Shown piece after piece: positions 15,533 to 27,480 of a stretch of DNA of 64,000 nt. A program made the position numbers and the translations under genes. Under the pieces are notes generated by a model, which saw nothing but the letters and a program-made list of their open reading frames with translations, ran no database searches and was not told the origin of the DNA. Positions within the stretch are counted from its first letter, which is position 1; each line of letters opens with the position of its first letter. The DNA is from Clostridia bacterium (GTDB taxonomy: Bacteria; Bacillota; Clostridia; Oscillospirales; CAG-272). The DNA lies in NCBI GenBank assembly GCA_017482055.1, contig JAFUOH010000011.1:26133-90132 (forward strand), written 5' to 3'.

Positions 15533-15772
15533 GTTTATATAGAAATTCGACCTGATTATGTCCATTGGTTTATATTTTCGCACACACTTCCGAACATTCG
15601 GCGGTGTGTGCGATATTTTTGTGCGGCGAGAGTTTATAAAATCGCTCACAAGCGTGCCAAAACCTTCAGAAAAGCAACCGATCCTAAATCTGTTTGTGCG
15701 TTTTGTATGTTTATTGTAGTAATCCCGAGCCGAATTTTAACATTTTGCACATCACATCGGCAATTTCTCACC

Positions 15773-15801
15773 TTGACTCAGAAAAAATCTCATGGTATAA
15801 T
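15773..15801 (+). promoter_or_regulatory. Promoter of the oxidoreductase operon
   Basis: TTGACT (15773-15778) and TATAAT (15796-15801) with a 17-bp spacer lie 43 bases before the first start codon. The -10 carries the TGG extension. Confidence 0.8.
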
Positions 15802-15843
15802 TACTGTACCGACTTTATGAAATCAAGAAAGGATACTGCCATT

Positions 15844-16842
15844 ATGAAAGCTATATTCATGTCAAAAAGCAGAAAAAACCTTGAAAATGTCTATACCCCC
15901 GCCACACGCGAAAAGCTTTGTGAAAAGTTTGAGTTTTTCGAACCGTTATGCGACCTTGCCGAGCTGGATGCCCGTGCCAACGAGCTGTGTGAGGTCGAGG
16001 TGATATTCTCCACCTGGGGAATGTTCTCCCTCACAAGTGAACAGATCGCAAAGTATCTGCCAAAGCTAAAGTCCGTTTACTATGGCGCGGGCACGGTGCA
16101 GGCATTCGCCCGTCCCTTTATCGAAGCAGGCATTGCTGTGCATAGTGCATGGGCGGCAAACGCCGTTCCCGTGGCAGAGTTTACCGTAGCACAGATAATT
16201 CTTGCAAACAAAGGTTACTTTCAGCGATTCCATCGTCCGTCAAACGGAACATGGATAAATCGCACCGCTGTAATTCCATGTCCCGGAAATTACAATAACA
16301 AGATCGGTCTCATCGGTATCGGAATGATCGGCTCGCTTGTGGCAAAAATGCTGCAGTCCTACAAATTCGAGGTACTGGCATTCGACCCGTTTCTGTCAGC
16401 CGAGCGTGCAAAGGAGCTTAATGTTGAGATCACCTCTCTGGAGCGCATCTTCTCGGAGTGTACAGTCATCTCAAATCATCTTGCCAACAATCCACAGACC
16501 GTCGGAATGCTTAACGGCAAGCTGTTCGATCTGATGCAGAAGAATGCGGTATTCATCAATACCGGCAGAGGCGCACAGGTAGTGGAAGACGATCTCATCG
16601 CCGCCATGATCGCCGAGCCTCAGCGAGTGGCACTCCTTGATGTTACCCTTCCCGAACCGCCGGAGCCCGACAGCAAGCTCTATACCCTTGACAATGTAAT
16701 CCTCTCTCCTCACATTGCAGGCTCGCTCGGGAACGAGGTCTCGCGCATGGGCGAATACATGTGCGAGGAATGCCTCCGAGTGATGGATGGCGATGCTCCC
16801 AAGTGGCAAGTATCGCTGAAAATGCTCGAAACCATGGCGTGA
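15844..16842 (+). CDS. D-isomer-specific 2-hydroxyacid dehydrogenase
   Basis: This is a 332-residue NAD(P)-dependent dehydrogenase. The Rossmann motif GLIGIGMIGSLVAKML lies near residue 155. Also visible are AVFINTGRGAQVVEDDLIAA (catalytic Arg neighbourhood) and LSPHIAGS with the catalytic His. The ATG at 15844 follows AAAGGA; the frame is open further upstream but would overlap the promoter. It opens a run of four oxidoreductase genes. The substrate, probably a small 2-keto or 2-hydroxy acid, cannot be told from sequence. Confidence 0.9.
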   Translation: MKAIFMSKSRKNLENVYTPATREKLCEKFEFFEPLCDLAELDARANELCEVEVIFSTWGMFSLTSEQIAKYLPKLKSVYYGAGTVQAFARPFIEAGIAVHSAWAANAVPVAEFTVAQIILANKGYFQRFHRPSNGTWINRTAVIPCPGNYNNKIGLIGIGMIGSLVAKMLQSYKFEVLAFDPFLSAERAKELNVEITSLERIFSECTVISNHLANNPQTVGMLNGKLFDLMQKNAVFINTGRGAQVVEDDLIAAMIAEPQRVALLDVTLPEPPEPDSKLYTLDNVILSPHIAGSLGNEVSRMGEYMCEECLRVMDGDAPKWQVSLKMLETMA

Positions 16843-16887
16843 TGCCGCTATCTGAGTCCACAATATTATCAATAAGGAGTATAATAT

Positions 16888-18201
16888 ATGCCGTTTGAGT
16901 TTAAATATCAGTCGCTTGACGACGTTAAAGCCGATGCGGCGGTGCTGGGGCTGGACCTGCCTTTTTCCGCGGATCTTTCCTGCCTTGCAAAGCCGATATG
17001 CGTTAAGGGTGATAATATCACTTTAAAAAATGCGGTCGCCATTCATCCCATGGAGGGCTTCGACAGCACCCCGAACGGTGCGCCGAGTGAGCTCACCCGC
17101 CGCCGCTATTTGAGATTCGCAAACAGTGATGCCGGGCTTTATTGGTTCGAAGCCGTGGCGATCTCTCATGAGTCCCGCTCCAATGCCCGTCAGCTTTGGA
17201 TAAACCGCGATAACGTTGATGAATACAAAAAGCTCGTGGACGAGCTTCATAGGATAACGGATGGTGCACCTGTTATTTGTCAGCTCACCCATTCAGGGCG
17301 TTTTTCACGTCCTGAGAATCTTCCCGCACCAATAATCGCTTATCATAATCCCATATTAAATCGCCCGTTTAATATTCCCGCCGAACACAAGGTCGTGACG
17401 GATGAATATCTCGACACGCTTGTACCTCAGTATGTGGAAGCCGCCAAGCTCGCATATGAGGCGGGCTTTGACGGTGTGGACATCAAGGCTTGTCACCGTT
17501 ATCTTTTAAGCGAACTGCTGTCCGCGTTTACACGCGAGGGCAAGTATGGCGGCAGCTTCGAAAACCGAACACGTCTTTACCGCGACATTATTGCCGCTGT
17601 GAAAGCAGAGCTTGGAAACAAGCTCATCGTGGCTACACGCCTCGGTGTACATGATGCCATCGGTTACCCATACGGCTTCTGTGATGACCGTGAAAAGCCC
17701 GAAAATTTCGCCCCCGACGAAGCGATACGCTTGATCGACGACATTCACAAGCTTGGCGTAAATCTCATCAACATAACCATGGGCACGCCCTATTTTAACC
17801 CACATGTAAACCGTCCCTACTGCAAGGGCGGTTACGAGCCTCCGGAGCACCCGCTTGTGGGAGTTGCACGCATGCTTGACGGTGCGGCACTGCTTACAAA
17901 GGAATTTCCCGACATCACCTTCATAGGTACGGGCTACACCTTTCTGCGACAGTTTGCGCCTTACCTTGCGGCAGGAGCCGTCGGAAGCGGCATGATCTCC
18001 GCCGCAGGCTTCGGACGTATGGCGTTCGCCTATGACGGATTCGCTAAAGATCTTATGGCAGGTGAAATGAAGCCTAACAAATGCTGTGTTACCTGCGGCA
18101 AGTGTACCGAGCTCATGCGTGCCTACACCACAACAGGCTGCCCTGTACGCGACAGCGAGGTATACGCGCCCATCTACAAAGCCGCGTGCGCGAATAAGTG
18201 A
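16888..18201 (+). CDS. Old Yellow Enzyme-type NADH:flavin oxidoreductase
   Basis: This 437-residue FMN-binding TIM barrel shows the OYE order: AVAIHPMEGFDS near residue 50, QLTHSGRFSRPE, GFDGVDIKACHRYLLSELLS with the substrate-binding Cys/His in place of the usual His-Asn pair, RTRLYRDIIAAVKAELG, and GAVGSGMISAAGFGRMAFA. The C-terminus has a cysteine cluster (CCVTCGKCTELMR, then GCP), similar to iron-sulfur-binding members such as dienoyl-CoA reductase. No separate FAD/NAD domain follows. Confidence 0.88.
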   Translation: MPFEFKYQSLDDVKADAAVLGLDLPFSADLSCLAKPICVKGDNITLKNAVAIHPMEGFDSTPNGAPSELTRRRYLRFANSDAGLYWFEAVAISHESRSNARQLWINRDNVDEYKKLVDELHRITDGAPVICQLTHSGRFSRPENLPAPIIAYHNPILNRPFNIPAEHKVVTDEYLDTLVPQYVEAAKLAYEAGFDGVDIKACHRYLLSELLSAFTREGKYGGSFENRTRLYRDIIAAVKAELGNKLIVATRLGVHDAIGYPYGFCDDREKPENFAPDEAIRLIDDIHKLGVNLINITMGTPYFNPHVNRPYCKGGYEPPEHPLVGVARMLDGAALLTKEFPDITFIGTGYTFLRQFAPYLAAGAVGSGMISAAGFGRMAFAYDGFAKDLMAGEMKPNKCCVTCGKCTELMRAYTTTGCPVRDSEVYAPIYKAACANK

Positions 18202-18206
18202 AGCGA

Positions 18207-18461
18207 TAAATAATCGTTTATCGTCCCATTGTAGAGGTGCCGGTAGCCGAGCCAAGGGGGGGAGTGCAGCAGTTGCAAAGCAACTGCATAGAGTTCGCCA
18301 AAGGCGAACTCCGAAGCAGGTCGGCTTTGCCGACCTGCTGGGGAACCCTTCGGATCGGCGTTTGAGAGCAGATGGTTCCCCCCCTCTGCCCGCGCCGCCC
18401 GGAGGGCGACACGGAACGCGGGGTGTGGGGCAGCCGCCCCACGCATATAAACGATAATTTA
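18207..18461. repeat. Interspersed palindromic repeat, copy 2, enlarged by three hairpins
   Basis: This 255-bp copy has ends TAAATAATCGTTTA and TAAACGATAATTTA and shares its right half with the copies at 3701 and 31234. Its left half carries three extra perfect palindromes: GCAGTTGC-aaa-GCAACTGC (18269-18287), GAGTTCGCC-aaa-GGCGAACTC (18291-18311) and GCAGGTCGGC-ttt-GCCGACCTGC (18316-18338). It separates the OYE gene from the SDR gene and could terminate or attenuate transcription between them. There is no coding sequence. Confidence 0.8.
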
Positions 18462-18495
18462 CCGAATCAATATTGTATACAAGGAGAATAAAGCT

Positions 18496-19251
18496 ATGCC
18501 AACTGCAATCGTTACGGGAGCATCCCGCGGTATCGGACGCGGTATATCGCTGATGCTCGCCGAAAAGGGTTATAAAATAATCGCCGCCGCTACACGTGAG
18601 CCCGATGCGGTGGAAGAATACATATCCGAATTAAAAAACCGCTCACCCGAATCTTTTTATGTTTCCTGCGATATATCAAAACCCGAATGTCGCGCAAGGC
18701 TGCTTGATGAAGCGGAAAAGTCGGGCGGGTTCGATATTCTCATCAACAATGCGGGCGCAGCACCGCTCGTCAGAGAGGATCTTCTTGACATGAGCGAGGA
18801 AAGTCTTGACCGCCTGCTCTCCATTAATTTAAAAGGCACATTCCTGCTCTCACAGGCTGCGGCAAAGGCGCTTATCAAGCGTGAGAGTGATGCTCGCAAA
18901 ATGATAATCAATATCACATCCATATCCGCCGACACTGCAAGCATCAACCGCGGCGAATACTGCATCTCCAAGGCGGGGCTGTCCATGGTCACCAAGCTGT
19001 TTGCCGATCGTCTCGCACCTCACGGCATCAATGTTTACGAGCTGCGCCCGGGTATCATCGAAACCGATATGACTGCGATTGTCAAGGACAAATACACCGC
19101 TATGATCGAGGGCGGACTGCTTCCCATCAAGCGTATGGGCAAGCCCGAGGACATCGCCAAGGCGGTATATGCGCTCACCGAAGGCTATTTCACCTACACC
19201 ACGGGCAGTGTAATGAACATCGACGGCGGTTTTACGCTTTCAAGACTATGA
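18496..19251 (+). CDS. Short-chain dehydrogenase/reductase (FabG-like)
   Basis: This 251-residue Rossmann enzyme has the classical SDR set: GASRGIGRGIS (cofactor), NNAGAAP, a catalytic Ser in ITSISAD and YCISK with catalytic Tyr and Lys, then LRPGIIETDM. It lies between two other oxidoreductases with its stop overlapping the next start (ATGA), so it is more likely part of this catabolic operon than of fatty-acid synthesis. Start at an ATG after AAGGAG. Confidence 0.9.
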   Translation: MPTAIVTGASRGIGRGISLMLAEKGYKIIAAATREPDAVEEYISELKNRSPESFYVSCDISKPECRARLLDEAEKSGGFDILINNAGAAPLVREDLLDMSEESLDRLLSINLKGTFLLSQAAAKALIKRESDARKMIINITSISADTASINRGEYCISKAGLSMVTKLFADRLAPHGINVYELRPGIIETDMTAIVKDKYTAMIEGGLLPIKRMGKPEDIAKAVYALTEGYFTYTTGSVMNIDGGFTLSRL

Positions 19252-21236
19252 TCATCACAAAGAAAGAGCTTGCGCATGAGCTTCGCGAGTTGAAAATAAA
19301 CGAAAGATCGCTCAGAGTCCCCGTATACACCTTCGGTACCGCCGTTGTGGGAAGCGGTGCGGCCGGGCTTAACTGTGCCGATCTACTCTCTGTTTCCGGG
19401 CAAAGCGTGGCAGTCATAACCGAGGGCATCAGCATGGGCACCTCCCGCAACACGGGTTCCGACAAGCAGACCTACTATAAACTCACCCTCTCGGGTGATA
19501 CTCCCGATTCGGTGGGCGACATGGCAAAGTCGCTGTTTGACGGCGGCGCGATGCACGGTGATCTTGCACTGCGGGAAGCGGCGGGAAGCACGCGTGCGTT
19601 CATGCGTCTTGTGGAGCTGGGCGTTCCCTTTCCACGTAACGAATACGGAGAGTTCGCGGGCTATCAAACCGATCACGATACTCGTACACGCGCCACCTCC
19701 TGCGGGCCGCTTACCTCAAAATACATGACCGAAGCATTGGAGCGCGCAGTACGAGCTCATGATGTACCGATCTTCGACGGTCACCGCGTTGTGCGCATCC
19801 TCACAGAGAGCGGACGGGCGATAGGTGTTGCCTCACTCTGCACCGATGAGATCGACTGCTTTAATGAATACGGACTTACGCTGATCCTCGCCAATAACAT
19901 CGTATGGGCGACAGGCGGGCCTTCGGCAATATACGCCGCCACCGTGTATCCCGAGAGCCAAACCTGTGCTCACGGCATTGCGCTTGAAGCAGGTGCGGCG
20001 GCGGTGAATGTGACGGAAAGCCAATACGGGCTCGCCTCGGTGAAATTCCGCTGGAACCTGTCGGGAACCTATCAGCAGGTTCTGCCGCGCTATGTTTCCA
20101 CTCTCCCCGACGGCTCGGACGAACGGGAATTTCTCGATGAATATTTTGACGGCACCACCGAGACCCTCACCGCTATCTTCCGAAAAGGCTACCAATGGCC
20201 CTTTGATCCCGCAAAGCTCGGCGGAGGCGGCTCGTCTATGGTGGACATCGCCGTATTCTGTGAGAGGCAAAAGGGACGGCGCGTGTTTATGGACTTCCGC
20301 CGCAATCCGTCGCCGGCAGACAAAGACGGGACGCTTGATTTTTCGCTGACGTCCGATGAGGTACATACCTATCTTGAAAACTCCGGCGCACTGCTTGCGA
20401 CTCCCATAGAACGGCTTGCAAAAATGAATACCCCCGCAATCGAGCTTTATATGAGCCATGGAATCGACCTGTATTCCGAGCCACTGGAGATCGACATGTG
20501 CGCACAGCACAACAACGGCGGTTTTTCTGTGGACATGAACTACGAAAGCATGACTCTGCCGCATTTTTTTGTCATCGGTGAAGCGGCGGGCGTATTTGGC
20601 ATCCACCGTCCCGGCGGAAGTGCGCTTAACTCAACGCAGGTGGGCTCATGTGCCGCTGCGGAACGCATCTCGGAGTATGAAAGGGACAGGCAAGCTACTT
20701 TACTGCCTGACGATACGGCAACACAGCTTTCCGAGCTGATTTGTCTTTACAGTAAAGACAAAAACGGCATGACTCGCAGCGATATTCTGAAAAAACGCGC
20801 AGAATATGCCAAGCGAATGAGCGAATGCGGCGCATTCATCCGAAGTGAAACCGAAATCGGCAAGCTTATTTCGGAAATAAAATCAGAACTTGCTGATTTC
20901 GCGGCGTATACCGTCAGCGATACGGCACTTCTTATTGAACTGCTCATTAACCGCGATATTTTGATAACACAGCTTGTATACCTCTCTTCAATACTTGAAT
21001 ATATCCAAGACGGCGGAATGAGCCGCGGCTCCTATCTTATCCTGCGCAAAGGTGATGCGCTTCCGAACGCCAATTCATGTATTGCTATCGACACCGTCCA
21101 CCGCGGCAAGGTGTGCGAAGTATTGTACACAGACGGCGAGATAAACGCCGCGTGGAAGCCGGTGCGCCCCATTCCCACGCGCGATAACTGGTTTGAAAAT
21201 GTCTACAACTCCTACAGAAAGCGATTTTCCGAGTGA
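19248..21236 (+). CDS. FAD-dependent oxidoreductase (fumarate reductase/succinate dehydrogenase flavoprotein-like)
   Basis: This 662-residue protein has a dinucleotide-binding motif GTAVVGSGAAGLNCADLL near residue 30, the GMGTSRNTGSDKQ loop, the conserved WATGGPSAIYA, and the C-terminal FAD motif HRPGGSALNSTQVGSCAAA. No signal peptide is present, so it is cytoplasmic. The last ~150 residues are helical, as in the succinate dehydrogenase/AprA-type fold. It is translationally coupled to the SDR gene. The substrate is unknown; the neighbouring enzymes suggest a four-step route for one carbonyl or hydroxy compound. Confidence 0.85.
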   Translation: MIITKKELAHELRELKINERSLRVPVYTFGTAVVGSGAAGLNCADLLSVSGQSVAVITEGISMGTSRNTGSDKQTYYKLTLSGDTPDSVGDMAKSLFDGGAMHGDLALREAAGSTRAFMRLVELGVPFPRNEYGEFAGYQTDHDTRTRATSCGPLTSKYMTEALERAVRAHDVPIFDGHRVVRILTESGRAIGVASLCTDEIDCFNEYGLTLILANNIVWATGGPSAIYAATVYPESQTCAHGIALEAGAAAVNVTESQYGLASVKFRWNLSGTYQQVLPRYVSTLPDGSDEREFLDEYFDGTTETLTAIFRKGYQWPFDPAKLGGGGSSMVDIAVFCERQKGRRVFMDFRRNPSPADKDGTLDFSLTSDEVHTYLENSGALLATPIERLAKMNTPAIELYMSHGIDLYSEPLEIDMCAQHNNGGFSVDMNYESMTLPHFFVIGEAAGVFGIHRPGGSALNSTQVGSCAAAERISEYERDRQATLLPDDTATQLSELICLYSKDKNGMTRSDILKKRAEYAKRMSECGAFIRSETEIGKLISEIKSELADFAAYTVSDTALLIELLINRDILITQLVYLSSILEYIQDGGMSRGSYLILRKGDALPNANSCIAIDTVHRGKVCEVLYTDGEINAAWKPVRPIPTRDNWFENVYNSYRKRFSE

Positions 21237-21371: not shown

Positions 21372-22094
21372 ATGAAGCTCTATGTTTGCAAGAATTATGA
21401 TGAAATGTCTGCAAAAGCCGCAGATGTAGTCGCAAGCGTTATCACGCTGAAGCCTGACTGTGTGCTCGGTCTGGCAACCGGCTCTACCCCTGTTGGAATG
21501 TACAAGTGTCTCGCCGAAATGAACAAGGCAGGCAAGCTGGATTTTGCGGGTGTCAAGACCTATAACCTTGACGAGTACTACCCCATCAAGGCGTCCGACC
21601 CTCAGAGCTACCGTTACTTCATGAACAAGAACCTGTTCAACAATATCAACATTGATATTGAAAACACCCACGTTTTAAACGGTGAGGCTCCCGACACCGA
21701 CGCAGAGTGCGCGGCATACGACAAGGCTATCGAAGCCGCAGGCGGCATCGACATTCAGGTACTCGGCATCGGCAACAACGGTCACATCGGCTTCAACGAG
21801 CCCGCAGACGAGCTTGTTGCCGCAACTCATGTACAGGGTCTGACCGAATCCACCATCGAAGCAAACTCCCGTTTCTTTAGCAGTGCGGACGAGGTTCCGA
21901 AGCACGCGCTGACCATGGGCATGGCTCCCATCATGAAGGCTAAGCGCATCATCATACTTATCAGCGGCAAGGGCAAGCACGCCGCGCTCAAGGAGATGCT
22001 CTCCGGCGGCATCACCACAAAGAATCCCGCAACCATCTTAAACCTTCACAGCGACGTTACCGTCGTCTGCGATGAGGACGCTTACAACGGCTGA
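21372..22094 (+). CDS. nagB: Glucosamine-6-phosphate deaminase
   Basis: This 240-residue isomerase/deaminase turns glucosamine 6-phosphate into fructose 6-phosphate and ammonia. Motifs are GLATGSTPVGMYK (phosphate loop), YNLDEYYPI, and GIGNNGHIGFNEPAD (catalytic). The ATG follows GAAAGGA. No nagA or PTS gene is adjacent, so it is a single-gene unit with its own promoter and terminator. Confidence 0.95.
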   Translation: MKLYVCKNYDEMSAKAADVVASVITLKPDCVLGLATGSTPVGMYKCLAEMNKAGKLDFAGVKTYNLDEYYPIKASDPQSYRYFMNKNLFNNINIDIENTHVLNGEAPDTDAECAAYDKAIEAAGGIDIQVLGIGNNGHIGFNEPADELVAATHVQGLTESTIEANSRFFSSADEVPKHALTMGMAPIMKAKRIIILISGKGKHAALKEMLSGGITTKNPATILNLHSDVTVVCDEDAYNG

Positions 22095-24266: not shown

Positions 24267-24920
24267 ATGCCCTATAAACTCGCCATCTTCGACCTCGACG
24301 GTACTATTTTAAGCACTCTCGACGATCTTACCGATTCCACCAATCACGCCCTCGCCGTAAACGGCTTACCAATAAGAACCACAAACGAAATACGCAGCTT
24401 TGTGGGTAACGGCGCTCGACTGCTTATTGAGCGTGCAGTTCCCAAAGGATGTCCCATGGATGTCACAGACAAGGTATTCGACGAATTTCGGTCATACTAC
24501 GCCGCCCATTCCGACATCAAGACCTGCCCATACGACGGCATTCTCGATATGCTGCACGAGCTCCGCAAAAACGGATGCAGGACTGCCGTGCTGTCAAACA
24601 AGCCCGACTTTGCGGTGCAAACGCTGTGCAAACAGTATTTTGACGGTCTGCTCGACTTTGCGGCAGGAGAAAAAAACGGCATTCCACGAAAGCCCGCCCC
24701 CGATTCAGTCAACGCCATCTTATCAGAGCTTTCGGTTGATCGACAGGATACAGTATACATCGGTGACTCCGATGTGGACATCGACACCGCAAAAAATGCG
24801 GGCATGGACTGCATCAGCGTCGACTGGGGCTTCCGTGACAGGGATTTTCTCCTTGCCCATGGTGCAAAAAATATAGCTTCCACCGCAAAAGAGCTGGAAG
24901 CTAAGATTCTCGGAGCGTAA
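24267..24920 (+). CDS. HAD-superfamily hydrolase, phosphoglycolate phosphatase-like
   Basis: This 217-residue phosphatase shows HAD motif I (IFDLDGTIL, nucleophile Asp in DLDGT), a helical cap (residues ~18-85), motif II (AVLSNKP), motif III Lys in PRKPAP, and motif IV (YIGDSDVDIDTA). Its length and cap match Gph/PpaX-type enzymes. The substrate is not certain; phosphoglycolate or another small phosphate ester is likely. Start at ATG after AAGGAG. Confidence 0.88.
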   Translation: MPYKLAIFDLDGTILSTLDDLTDSTNHALAVNGLPIRTTNEIRSFVGNGARLLIERAVPKGCPMDVTDKVFDEFRSYYAAHSDIKTCPYDGILDMLHELRKNGCRTAVLSNKPDFAVQTLCKQYFDGLLDFAAGEKNGIPRKPAPDSVNAILSELSVDRQDTVYIGDSDVDIDTAKNAGMDCISVDWGFRDRDFLLAHGAKNIASTAKELEAKILGA

Positions 24921-24955
24921 GTGTCTCACATAGATTCAAAAAAGCACAATTGTTA

Positions 24956-24984
24956 TTGAAATCCCCATCGGCATTTGATATACT
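24956..24984 (+). promoter_or_regulatory. Promoter of the sialidase-like/AraC fusion gene
   Basis: TTGAAA (24956-24961) and TATACT (24979-24984), 17 bp apart, lie 22 bases before the ATG at 25007. Confidence 0.7.
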
Positions 24985-25006
24985 CTATACAAGGGAGTGT
25001 GATCAT

Positions 25007-26701
25007 ATGATAATCAAAAGCGAGCACTTTTCGCTTGTTACCGATGAGGAGATACTGCGTAACTACTATGCCGACAAGCGTCTGTGGCAGGGAATCCCGT
25101 CTATCGCCCTGTCAAGAGGCGGACGTATTTTCGTAACCTTCTATTCCGGCGGATGGTGTGAGGACATCGGAAATGTTTCCTTCATCATCGCATCTGACGA
25201 TGACGGTGCCACCTTCTCCGAGCCTATCGTTGCGGCAGTTCCCGACAGTGAGCACCGCACATACGATGCCTGCCTTTGGCTTGACCCCTTCGGCAGACTG
25301 TGGTATATCTTCAATCTGATGCCCGATCATGCAGCATGGGCATCTATCTGCGATGATCCTGACGCAGATGAGCTTGTATGGAGTGAACCGCGTATCATCG
25401 GCTTTGATTTAATGATAAACAAGCCTATCGTTCTTACCACAGGCGAATGGCTCTTCCCCTCAGCTGTATGGCGCCGCGGAATGATCGTTCGCGGCAATCC
25501 CAAGCTTGAAACCAAACAGCCCGAGCGCGGTGTTTTCGTTTTCAAGACAAGTGACAACGGTAAGACCTTCACAAAGCACAGTCACATTGTAATTCCTCAG
25601 GTCGATTTCGAGGAACCCATGATGCTGGAACAACAGGACGGAATGATCCGTATGCTTGTCCGCACTACCTACGGAATCGGCGAAACCTATTCCTATGACC
25701 GCGGTAAGACGTGGTGCCCATCATTCCGAAGTGAGATCAAGGGTCCCGCTTCCCGCTTCCATATCACGAGACTCTCCTCCGGCAGAGTAATGCTCATAAA
25801 CCATTGGGAATTCAAGAACAGAGATAATCTTACCGTATTCCTTTCCGAGGACGACGGTGTCACATGGAAGTATCGCCTTCTGCTCGACGAGCGCAACGAG
25901 GTATCCTACCCCGATGCACAGGAGCACAATGGCTTCATCTACATAGTCTACGACCGTGAGCGCGGCGACGTAAAGCGCACGCTTGACGAGGTTTATGGTG
26001 ACGCCCGTGAAATTCTCATGGCGAAGGTAACCGAAGAGGATATAATTGTCGGCAAGCCGGTAAATCCCCAAAGCCGGCTTAAAGTAATAGTCAACAAGCT
26101 CGGCGAGTATCACGGCGACGAGCCCAATCCCTTCTTTGAGATTGATCGCTGTGCCGACAATGCCGAGGCGGCGCGTATGCTTGCGGCAAACTTTGCTAAA
26201 GGGGACATTCCGATAAAGCTGTTTGATACCTTCCCTGTAAAGTGTGCCAATATACGCAAGGTTGATACCATTCGCCTTGATGAGCTTATCGAGGAATACG
26301 AGAAGACTGATGGTATCAGTATCGCGCTGATCGAACAAATGATTGCGATCATCCGCCTTTCGAACGGAGAAAATTCCGATTTCGCACCGATAATCAATCA
26401 TATCAAGGCGGTTGTCGAGGATGGACTCGCCGAAGATATCAGCGTTAATGAAATCTCACAGCGCGTCGGTATCAGCCGTTTTTACATGGCGCATCTTTTT
26501 AAAAAGCACACAGGCACCACTGTCTCCGATTACAAAAACGAGCTTAAGCTCACAAGAGCTAAGCGTCTGCTAATCTCAGGCGATACCAAGATCAGTGATA
26601 TCGCATTCACCTGCGGATTCGGAAGCTCCAGTTATTTCTCCAAGAAATTCCTCGAGTGCGAGGGACTTACTCCCGGAGAATACCGCAAGCTCCACAGATA
26701 A
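25007..26701 (+). CDS. Sialidase-like beta-propeller fused to an AraC-type DNA-binding domain
   Basis: This 564-residue protein lacks a signal peptide. Residues ~1-370 form a sialidase-like propeller with four Asp-boxes (SDDDGATF, TSDNGKTF, SYDRGKTW, SEDDGVTW). The usual FRIP arginine motif reads QGIP, so the first catalytic Arg is missing. A linker with helical segments follows. Residues ~460-564 are a complete AraC double helix-turn-helix (VNEISQRVGISRFYMAHLFK; KISDIAFTCGFGSSSYFSKK; final PGEYRK). The natural reading is a cytoplasmic regulator using an inactive propeller as sugar sensor. The start has AAGGGAG upstream. No frame break separates the parts. Confidence 0.88.
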   Translation: MIIKSEHFSLVTDEEILRNYYADKRLWQGIPSIALSRGGRIFVTFYSGGWCEDIGNVSFIIASDDDGATFSEPIVAAVPDSEHRTYDACLWLDPFGRLWYIFNLMPDHAAWASICDDPDADELVWSEPRIIGFDLMINKPIVLTTGEWLFPSAVWRRGMIVRGNPKLETKQPERGVFVFKTSDNGKTFTKHSHIVIPQVDFEEPMMLEQQDGMIRMLVRTTYGIGETYSYDRGKTWCPSFRSEIKGPASRFHITRLSSGRVMLINHWEFKNRDNLTVFLSEDDGVTWKYRLLLDERNEVSYPDAQEHNGFIYIVYDRERGDVKRTLDEVYGDAREILMAKVTEEDIIVGKPVNPQSRLKVIVNKLGEYHGDEPNPFFEIDRCADNAEAARMLAANFAKGDIPIKLFDTFPVKCANIRKVDTIRLDELIEEYEKTDGISIALIEQMIAIIRLSNGENSDFAPIINHIKAVVEDGLAEDISVNEISQRVGISRFYMAHLFKKHTGTTVSDYKNELKLTRAKRLLISGDTKISDIAFTCGFGSSSYFSKKFLECEGLTPGEYRKLHR

Positions 26702-26727
26702 ATTCCCCTCAAAACACAGAATAATCC

Positions 26728-26762
26728 AAAAAGCATTCGCGGCTTAACCACGAATGCTTTTT
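26728..26762. terminator. Bidirectional terminator
   Basis: AAAAAGCATTCG (26728-26739) and CGAATGCTTTTT (26751-26762) form a perfect stem with A-tract and T-tract, between the convergent AraC fusion and DUF975 genes. Confidence 0.88.
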
Positions 26763-26767
26763 CTGTA

Positions 26768-27391
26768 TTAACCGTTTACTCTGAGATCTTCCTCCGTAAT
26801 TCTGCCGTTTGCCAGTGCATCGTTAAGAAATTCCTCATAACAGCCTACCTCTGTGAGATACATATACGGTGTAGTATGAAGAATAAGCGTGAGTCCGAGA
26901 GTGATAACTCCGAGAAGTGTCCATCCGATAAAGCTGAGCCCCACAACGAACATCTTCCCTTTGTTGCCGTTCATAATGCGGCGGGACAGCGTGATCGCAT
27001 CCTGAGCGGGAACATTCGGGTATTTCGCAAGTATGTACGGAGTCATGCAATAGGAATACGCCTTGACGATGCCGGGGATGATGAAGAGCAATGACCACAG
27101 GAAAATGTATACATTCATAAGAAGCATACCGGCGAGCTTTCTGCCGTAGTTTTCCTGAAATCCGCAGTTAAACATCGTTCCGAGCTCGGGCACCTCACCA
27201 TTCATAAGAAGAGCATAGGTCATATATAAGCCGACCGCCAGCGGCATCAAAAGTATCGTTGCCACACCCGGCAAAAATGAGCTTGCCGCACCCACGATAA
27301 CCGAATACAGGAATGCGGGCAGGATGCATTTACCCCAATTAGCACCAAGTACGGCTTTGGCTTCTTTTTTAATTTCCGAACGAGTTTTCAT
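26768..27391 (-). CDS. DUF975 family membrane protein
   Basis: This 207-residue protein with four to five membrane segments begins KTRSEIKKEAKAVLGANWGK, the characteristic DUF975 opening, and contains GIVKAYSYCMTPYILAKYPN and SRRIMNGNKGKMFVV, also family hallmarks. The start is the ATG at 27391 with GGAGG upstream; the open frame reaches further back without a ribosome site. The function is unknown. Confidence 0.87.
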   Translation of the reverse strand: MKTRSEIKKEAKAVLGANWGKCILPAFLYSVIVGAASSFLPGVATILLMPLAVGLYMTYALLMNGEVPELGTMFNCGFQENYGRKLAGMLLMNVYIFLWSLLFIIPGIVKAYSYCMTPYILAKYPNVPAQDAITLSRRIMNGNKGKMFVVGLSFIGWTLLGVITLGLTLILHTTPYMYLTEVGCYEEFLNDALANGRITEEDLRVNG

Positions 27392-27480
27392 ATTATACCT
27401 CCGATGATATTTGTTATAATCAGTATACACTAAAACCGCTAATCTGTCAATAATGTTTGTCGAATTTTATAAAATGGAAA

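Follow-up and report, generated by a model that had tools for sequence, protein, structure and literature searches.

The gene considered here occupies positions 25007-26701 of the forward strand in a 64,000-nucleotide stretch of DNA (the window, meaning the whole stretch analysed) and encodes, in a frame without internal stops, a protein of 564 residues that joins a sialidase-superfamily propeller to a complete AraC-type double helix-turn-helix (HTH), as the original prediction had described. Its ATG at 25007 is preceded by a Shine-Dalgarno-like AAGGGAG recognised by eye, a TTG at 24950 being a possible earlier start of the open frame, and its stop codon lies at 26699-26701 (+). A sigma-70-like promoter, TTGAAA-17-TATACT with a TG before the -10 box, is predicted at 24956..24984 (+), and is no more than supportive since promoter-like sites in 24850-26800 number 3 against 2.2 in shuffled sequence. 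Just past the stop codon is a terminator-like stem-loop of 16 pairs (26728..26762, minus strand; 7 such sites found for 1.7 expected), whose inverse may also serve the plus strand. The preceding neighbour is a HAD-type phosphatase gene (24267-24920, +), and the next gene, convergent, encodes a DUF975 protein (26768-27430, -); with the stem-loop, this arrangement indicates that the fusion gene is probably transcribed alone, as its own unit. Further upstream, the window holds a one-strand run of oxidoreductase genes (2-hydroxyacid dehydrogenase, FMN oxidoreductase, SDR and FAD-binding protein; 15694-21236), followed by a glucosamine-6-phosphate isomerase family gene (21372-22094) about 3 kb from the fusion.

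The propeller (residues ~1-360; 25007..26086, +) is matched by Pfam BNR_2 at residues 42-313 (E 7.6e-25, 88.2 bits, cut-off 31.4) and carries four Asp-boxes (residues 63-70, 181-188, 229-236 and 280-287), which were located by eye, as was the lack of any hydrophobic N-terminus or signal peptide, both in agreement with the first description. It is followed by a helical linker common to the fusions (residues ~361-455; 26087..26371, +), the start of which is resembled, again by eye, by the tails of some unfused relatives, and by the DNA-binding domain (residues ~460-564; 26384..26698, +), matched by HTH_18 at residues 484-561 (E 4.1e-22, 78.7 bits, cut-off 33.6) and by HTH_AraC (64.5 bits, cut-off 26.6). 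The protein thereby has the two adjacent HTH motifs above curated cut-off that mark the AraC family and, among the marks of GH33, the Asp-box-bearing propeller fold. Structure prediction, proposed at the outset as a check, bears this out: AlphaFold2, run on a 72-row alignment of the window protein and related loci, gives a model (pLDDT 89.9, pTM 0.75) whose N-terminal part is all beta, with helices at ~384-450 and visible AraC helices, and for which the best Foldseek matches in the PDB are sialidases (first match E 3.1e-14; 14-20% identity among the matches listed).

Recurrence of the fusion and its gene neighbourhoods

A scan of named genomes, from which the best 80 of 257 relatives were retained, found the full fusion in 50 loci and an unfused anchor in 27, the remaining three (L126, L142, L156) having no ORF called and belonging to neither class; the retained loci are the most window-like, and these shares are therefore no estimate of natural frequencies. 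The 48 aligned fusions are 40-51% identical to the window protein. The alignment used below (A3) omits, among fused loci, L087, which has an additional domain, and L111, whose called ORF lacks the N-terminus (the G175 copy has an in-frame stop), and, among unfused ones, L129 (half-HTH), L130 and L145 (long ORFs) and L151 (a near-copy), together with the half-HTH genes of L092 and L137. A class-wide search matched the N-terminal domain in 30 of 391 genomes, at least seven of which, own genome included, have the fusion, with one in-frame stop in the G175 copy; the search among relatives gave matches at E<=1e-30 in 8 of 59, with four full-length ones, again counting the own genome. Outside the class, a phylum-wide search scoring at most three candidates per genome, so that misses are possible, matched 2 of 398 genomes (the own one and a fragment). 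Many of the related genomes come from animal guts, with goat, sheep, deer or buffalo gut sites named for 50 of the 80 retained loci; unfused relatives also occur in the complete genome of Lachnospiraceae bacterium GAM79 (L107) and in a groundwater spirochaete MAG (L118). Among viral contigs, a single-protein query found no relatives and a query with alignment A2 found two, one of them fused. The fusions of L153 and of L157, an IMG/VR contig filed as viral, agree in length and scores. A literature search over titles and abstract openings, with subscription papers outside its coverage, found no report of such a fusion.

That the same in-frame fusion recurs in related genomes answers the concern, raised with the original prediction, that a frameshift might have joined two genes. 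An assembly chimera might be suspected in a source genome that is incomplete and in 26 contigs, and yet the identical fusion stands in dozens of assemblies with a common upstream site, which leaves chimerism or a sequencing frameshift with a practically negligible chance, and the chimera was rejected on this recurrence. Found across many gut Clostridia, mostly with a matching site upstream of its gene, the propeller-AraC fusion does not look accidental; it has the appearance of a genuine type of sugar sensor that has received little study.

Clues to what is sensed come from the neighbours of some relatives. By tblastn, 10 of the 50 fused loci and 8 of the 27 unfused ones have a KDPG aldolase gene; DgoK (2-keto-3-deoxygalactonate kinase) is present in five fused and three unfused, and a KDG-kinase-like PfkB in two and four, so that 10 fused and 9 unfused loci have at least one of them; Pfam confirmed representative calls, and near-copy pairs (L109/L110, L133/L138, L150/L151) are included among the loci. 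Seventeen of the 18 aldolase genes share the strand of the BNR gene, and the gap between the two is at most 80 nt in 14 cases (7 of 10 at fused loci, 7 of 8 at unfused ones), the aldolase gene overlapping the end of the fusion in L109 and L110. The order in L109 is fusion, aldolase, DgoK, with ORF positions matching those of a same-genus contig (G392:C36), and KDPG aldolase and DgoK genes come immediately after the unfused member of L121, just as they do after the fusions of L091 and L099. In L115 (3635-5212), a single ORF directly after the fusion gene combines, by Pfam, a DgoK-type kinase with a KDPG aldolase. No KDG gene was found in the available DNA of 40 of the 50 fused loci, some of which are truncated by contig ends, and neither KDPG aldolase nor DgoK in the own genome (54% complete, 26 contigs); DgoK is present in six of the nine other fusion genomes. 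Other carbohydrate genes at fused loci encode GH38 (L096) and melibiase (L095), and single unfused loci adjoin genes for GH28 (L146), a rhamnosidase (L148) and GH127 (L150/L151). A BNR homologue directly follows the fusion in nine of the 50 named loci (L092, L095, L105, L111, L119, L122, L127, L135 and L144, the L119 case being read by eye from the twin locus L053), as well as in G425, and lies about 2 kb on in L137; of the two secreted BNR homologues scanned with Pfam one, that of L122, has a dockerin, and the homologue of L105 carries a GDSL esterase domain. These neighbours point to 2-keto-3-deoxy sugar acids, probably derived from plant glycans, rather than to host sialic acid.

A conserved site upstream of the fusion genes

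Upstream of the window gene, a weight matrix marks a predicted operator, GCACAATTGTTATTG (24944..24958, +; consensus GCAnWTYTGTTATWG with an A-rich 5' flank), starting 35 nt before the -10 box. The pattern was first spotted by aligning the upstream regions of fusions (L122, L127, L135 and L144; L081, L082 and L089) and was then counted in the 48 fusions for which 200 nt or more of upstream DNA is available, L100, at a contig end, being dropped from the 49 fused rows of A3. The best match has at most one mismatch in 30 of these 48, window included, and at most two in 40, 39 of them on the strand of the gene and one on the opposite strand, against a mean of 0 at the first threshold and of 1.85 (maximum 5) at the second in 20 dinucleotide shuffles; the fusions are mutually related, and these counts are not independent samples. 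Eight of the 48 have no match at two mismatches or fewer, and in the same test neither has any of the 23 unfused relatives. When the eight rows used for spotting, window included, and the near-copies L088 and L110 are set aside, the 38 fusions left still give 20 and 30 at the two thresholds. Other upstream regions of the same loci yield 44 of 736 at up to two mismatches, nine of them at up to one, and among these matches are five divergent genes that, from their coordinates, share the intergenic DNA of the fusion (L082, L084, L092, L102, L114) and the KDPG aldolase gene of L095.

A matrix built from 35 fusion upstreams, omitting the window, L088, L090, L100 and L110, scores the window site at 22.8, the highest in the 64 kb on both strands, the next best being 10.3. 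A score of 14 is reached by 40 of 47 other fusions and by 0 of 23 unfused relatives; the seven misses comprise L077, L117 and L137, with nothing alike, and L080, L085, L104 and L153, with weak look-alikes. Across the 80 loci, most of which supplied sites to the matrix, it finds 30 sites at 22 or above against 0 in the reversed DNA, and 72 against 13 at 12 or above. The information is concentrated in two blocks, GCA and TTGTTATnG, about 10 bases apart, a layout that would suit two HTHs reading neighbouring major grooves. Of 36 sites examined, 30 have a clear -10 box, and in 23 of these the site starts 34-36 nt before it. Repeated sites are not general, occurring only in a few upstreams (31 nt apart in L127 and L144, 42 nt in L089). 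L144 has a second site pair (16929-17514), ahead of a broken fusion start and a following ORF that, judged by eye, looks like a secreted GH43; the arrangement gives the impression of a promoter copied and put to new use.

In a search for a wider regulon, the own genome showed seven sites at up to one mismatch against five for the pattern read backwards, and only the one before the fusion gene is well placed. In seven relatives a stricter 16-base pattern gave 37 matches against 14 for the control, 30 of which yielded loci; the strong, well-placed sites in these 30 are before the fusions of G392 and G425, L193 adds a weak one (14.2) upstream of an epimerase-like ORF, and the seven matches that yielded no locus include the site before the fusion of G363. 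At this strictness the site thus precedes the fusion in three of seven fusion genomes, with none before those of G439, G327, G010 and G238. Unfused BNR genes with a site are the second gene of L095 and that of L130, and L095 has separate sites before its KDPG aldolase gene, its fusion (weak, 14.5) and its standalone BNR gene.

The old active site and the origin of the fusion

GH33 enzymes use a tyrosine nucleophile with a glutamate partner, and both have counterparts, placed by alignment, in Tyr301 and Glu203 (72 of 72 aligned rows); the window propeller also retains Asp87, Arg219 and Arg272. The full arginine triad of GH33 is not there: Arg219 and Arg272 are present in 72 of 72 rows, and the place of the FRIP arginine is taken in the window protein by Gly29 (QGIP), a replacement already reported in the original prediction. 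Profile alignment with NanI pairs Gly29 with the FRIP arginine, Asp87 with Asp328, Glu203 with Glu539 and Arg219 with Arg555, the N-terminal half being mapped through a weak alignment of separate stretches of about 7 bits each; in the same way Arg272 and Tyr301 align with an Arg and a Tyr conserved in GH33 chains, and we take them to be the third arginine and the nucleophile. A study of NanI gives active-site roles for Arg266, Arg555, Arg615, Asp291, Asp328 and Tyr655, with Asp291 as the acid/base, and the first residue of the construct (PMC4014123). The counterpart of Asp291, a residue of the first blade, falls in a gap of the weak alignment, with an invariant Glu52 (72 of 72) close by. Judged by alignment, then, the family retains most of a sialidase-type site and lacks the full arginine triad.

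Gln28 is found in 72 of 72 rows and Gly29 in 70, the other two having Leu, and the WQGIP motif is common to fused, unfused and secreted members. To read QGIP as a sign that the window protein in particular had been inactivated was too strong, since the motif extends across the subfamily, and private inactivation by this route was rejected. A better hint of lost catalysis is offered by D202E and H204P, which flank the invariant Glu203 (residues 198-204; 25598..25618, +) and, in the alignment, are private to the window copy, Asp202 and His204 being present in all 71 other members. With G192S they make three columns that the window copy alters and that are invariant in the other 71, while no other row alters more than one such otherwise-invariant column. 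For the 117 columns that reach 90% conservation or more across the 23 unfused members, average retention of the residue is 93.7% in the 48 other fusions, and the window copy departs at 11.

In a quick tree of 82 propellers, fused and unfused members interleave, with 13 label changes, of which the starred branches force at least four, whereas in a short tree of HTH domains (49 fused rows and 27 other AraC domains of the same loci) the fused domains nearly form one group, with three changes, of which the starred branches force one. The simplest reading is one fusion event followed by several losses, many forks being weakly placed. Tblastn found no HTH remnants behind unfused genes, which argues against recent loss there, and the unfused tails that resemble the start of the linker argue for an older one. 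Genes of about 510 residues in which propeller and linker are followed, judging by eye, by the first HTH alone occur in L137 (10907-13978, two genes), L092 (11700-13253) and L129 (5305-6843) and form one clade on the propeller tree; that of L092 adjoins a complete fusion and the two of L137 lie about 2 kb from one, and such relatives are possibly regulators losing DNA binding, or partners. Two further architectures were seen: a 930-residue protein in L087 (7582-10374) with propeller, AraC domain and, by eye, a second, different BNR-like domain, and, in the own genome (G000:C26:79287-82001), several adjacent BNR_2 matches, only one of which weakly matches the fusion. Tentatively, and as a possible scenario only, an AraC output may have been joined, once, to a cytoplasmic enzyme of sialidase fold that took part in breaking down acidic plant glycans, giving rise to a separate class of one-component regulators; most members would still have a complete active site and may sense by catalysis, some would have lost one HTH or both, and the window copy would have become a pure, non-catalytic sensor.

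A propeller as the proposed sensor of an AraC-type regulator

The reading that we favour, and consider probable, is of a cytoplasmic, autoregulated one-component activator of the AraC family, with a captured carbohydrate-active propeller as its sensor. It builds on what sequence comparison gives directly (that the fusion exists and recurs, the fold predicted for it, a conserved site at a preferred distance from the -10 box, and the neighbourhoods of relatives), and agrees with the initial suggestion of a glycosidase fold reused as the sensor of a one-protein regulator, which fits both the recurrent fusion and the conserved site before fusion genes. The propeller would have been captured from a carbohydrate-active family, some members of which stand beside genes for KDG- or KDGal-type sugar acids, which probably derive from acidic plant glycans. 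A small acidic sugar, most likely, would bind in the old active-site cleft, its carboxylate held by Arg219 and Arg272, and binding, transmitted through the helical linker, would position the double HTH on GCAnWTYTGTTATWG at the -35 region of the gene's own promoter, so that the bound regulator would raise its own transcription; in some relatives genes for KDPG aldolase, kinase and BNR enzyme might be switched on too, through a shared unit or site. That the fusion protein binds this site we infer from its conservation before fusion genes, and another regulator could be the binder. Class II AraC-type activators have their site at the -35 region, and by this analogy activation, rather than repression, would be the expected effect. 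The window copy itself is presumably no longer catalytic.

The most serious alternative, possible and yet somewhat doubtful, is a trigger enzyme, in which the propeller would still act as a hydrolase or lyase on an acidic glycan, both turning over its substrate and regulating transcription. Asp202, Glu203, His204, Arg219, Arg272 and Tyr301 are kept in 48 of 48 other fusions and 23 of 23 unfused members, and the placement of the unfused L121 gene, like that of the L091 and L099 fusions, suits an enzyme; binding alone, however, could preserve the same residues, the family has neither the FRIP arginine nor, on the weak alignment, a clear equivalent of the acid/base Asp, and the window copy has lost Asp202 and His204. 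When half of the unfused members serve to choose the core columns, the rate of departure is also somewhat higher in fusions (4.7%) than in the held-out unfused members (3.0%), and reaches 8.3% in the window copy. Propellers frequently act as scaffolds, and this general tendency is what speaks for an oligomerisation or protein-interaction domain without a small-molecule ligand, a reading that we regard as unlikely: the cleft residues of the family are preserved in fusions, and a scaffold would not need them.

Still less probable is a sensor of sialic acid, or a true sialidase, answering host glycans. The fold is that of sialidases, animal guts are the source of many related genomes, and a glucosamine-6-phosphate isomerase family gene lies upstream, but that gene is beyond the HAD phosphatase gene and two opposite-strand genes, the arginine triad is incomplete across the family, and NanE, of sialic acid catabolism, is present in just two of ten fusion genomes, both times on a different contig from the fusion. 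The informative neighbours are of the KDG type, and the suggested response to a host glycan derivative thus finds no favour in the gene contexts.

Should the favoured reading of an AraC-type activator hold, a carbohydrate-active propeller would join the sensor domains of a large bacterial activator family, and the predicted operator makes the idea of a regulator directly testable. With members that are fused, unfused, secreted or half-HTH, the subfamily offers a natural experiment in which the change of an enzyme into a sensor, and perhaps the reverse, can be traced; its unfused members draw attention to a protein, as yet uncharacterised, encoded next to 2-keto-3-deoxy sugar-acid genes of gut Clostridia.

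Enzyme folds are known in regulators such as the ROK-family NagC and the trigger enzymes RocG and PutA, which sense a metabolite of their own pathway; the window protein likewise appears to reuse an enzyme fold for sensing, but differs in fold and DNA-binding domain, and catalysis is here judged from residues. With GH33 exo-sialidases (NanI of C. perfringens; PDB 4bbw, 4fj6) it has in common the fold, the Asp-boxes, the counterparts of NanI Asp328, Glu539 and Arg555 and a conserved Arg and Tyr; unlike them, it has Gly at the FRIP arginine, no clear acid/base Asp, no signal peptide that we could see, and a fused DNA-binding domain. With AraC/XylS regulators (AraC, RhaS and the DNA-binding domains of MarA, SoxS and RamA) it shares the complete double HTH and, with the class II activators among AraC-type proteins, the location of its predicted site at the -35 region. 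AraC itself has a cupin-like sensor domain, whereas the sensor here would be a sialidase-superfamily propeller, N-terminal and set before a helical linker. The known kind to which the protein belongs is that of the AraC one-component regulators; what is new is the putative propeller sensor and the predicted operator.
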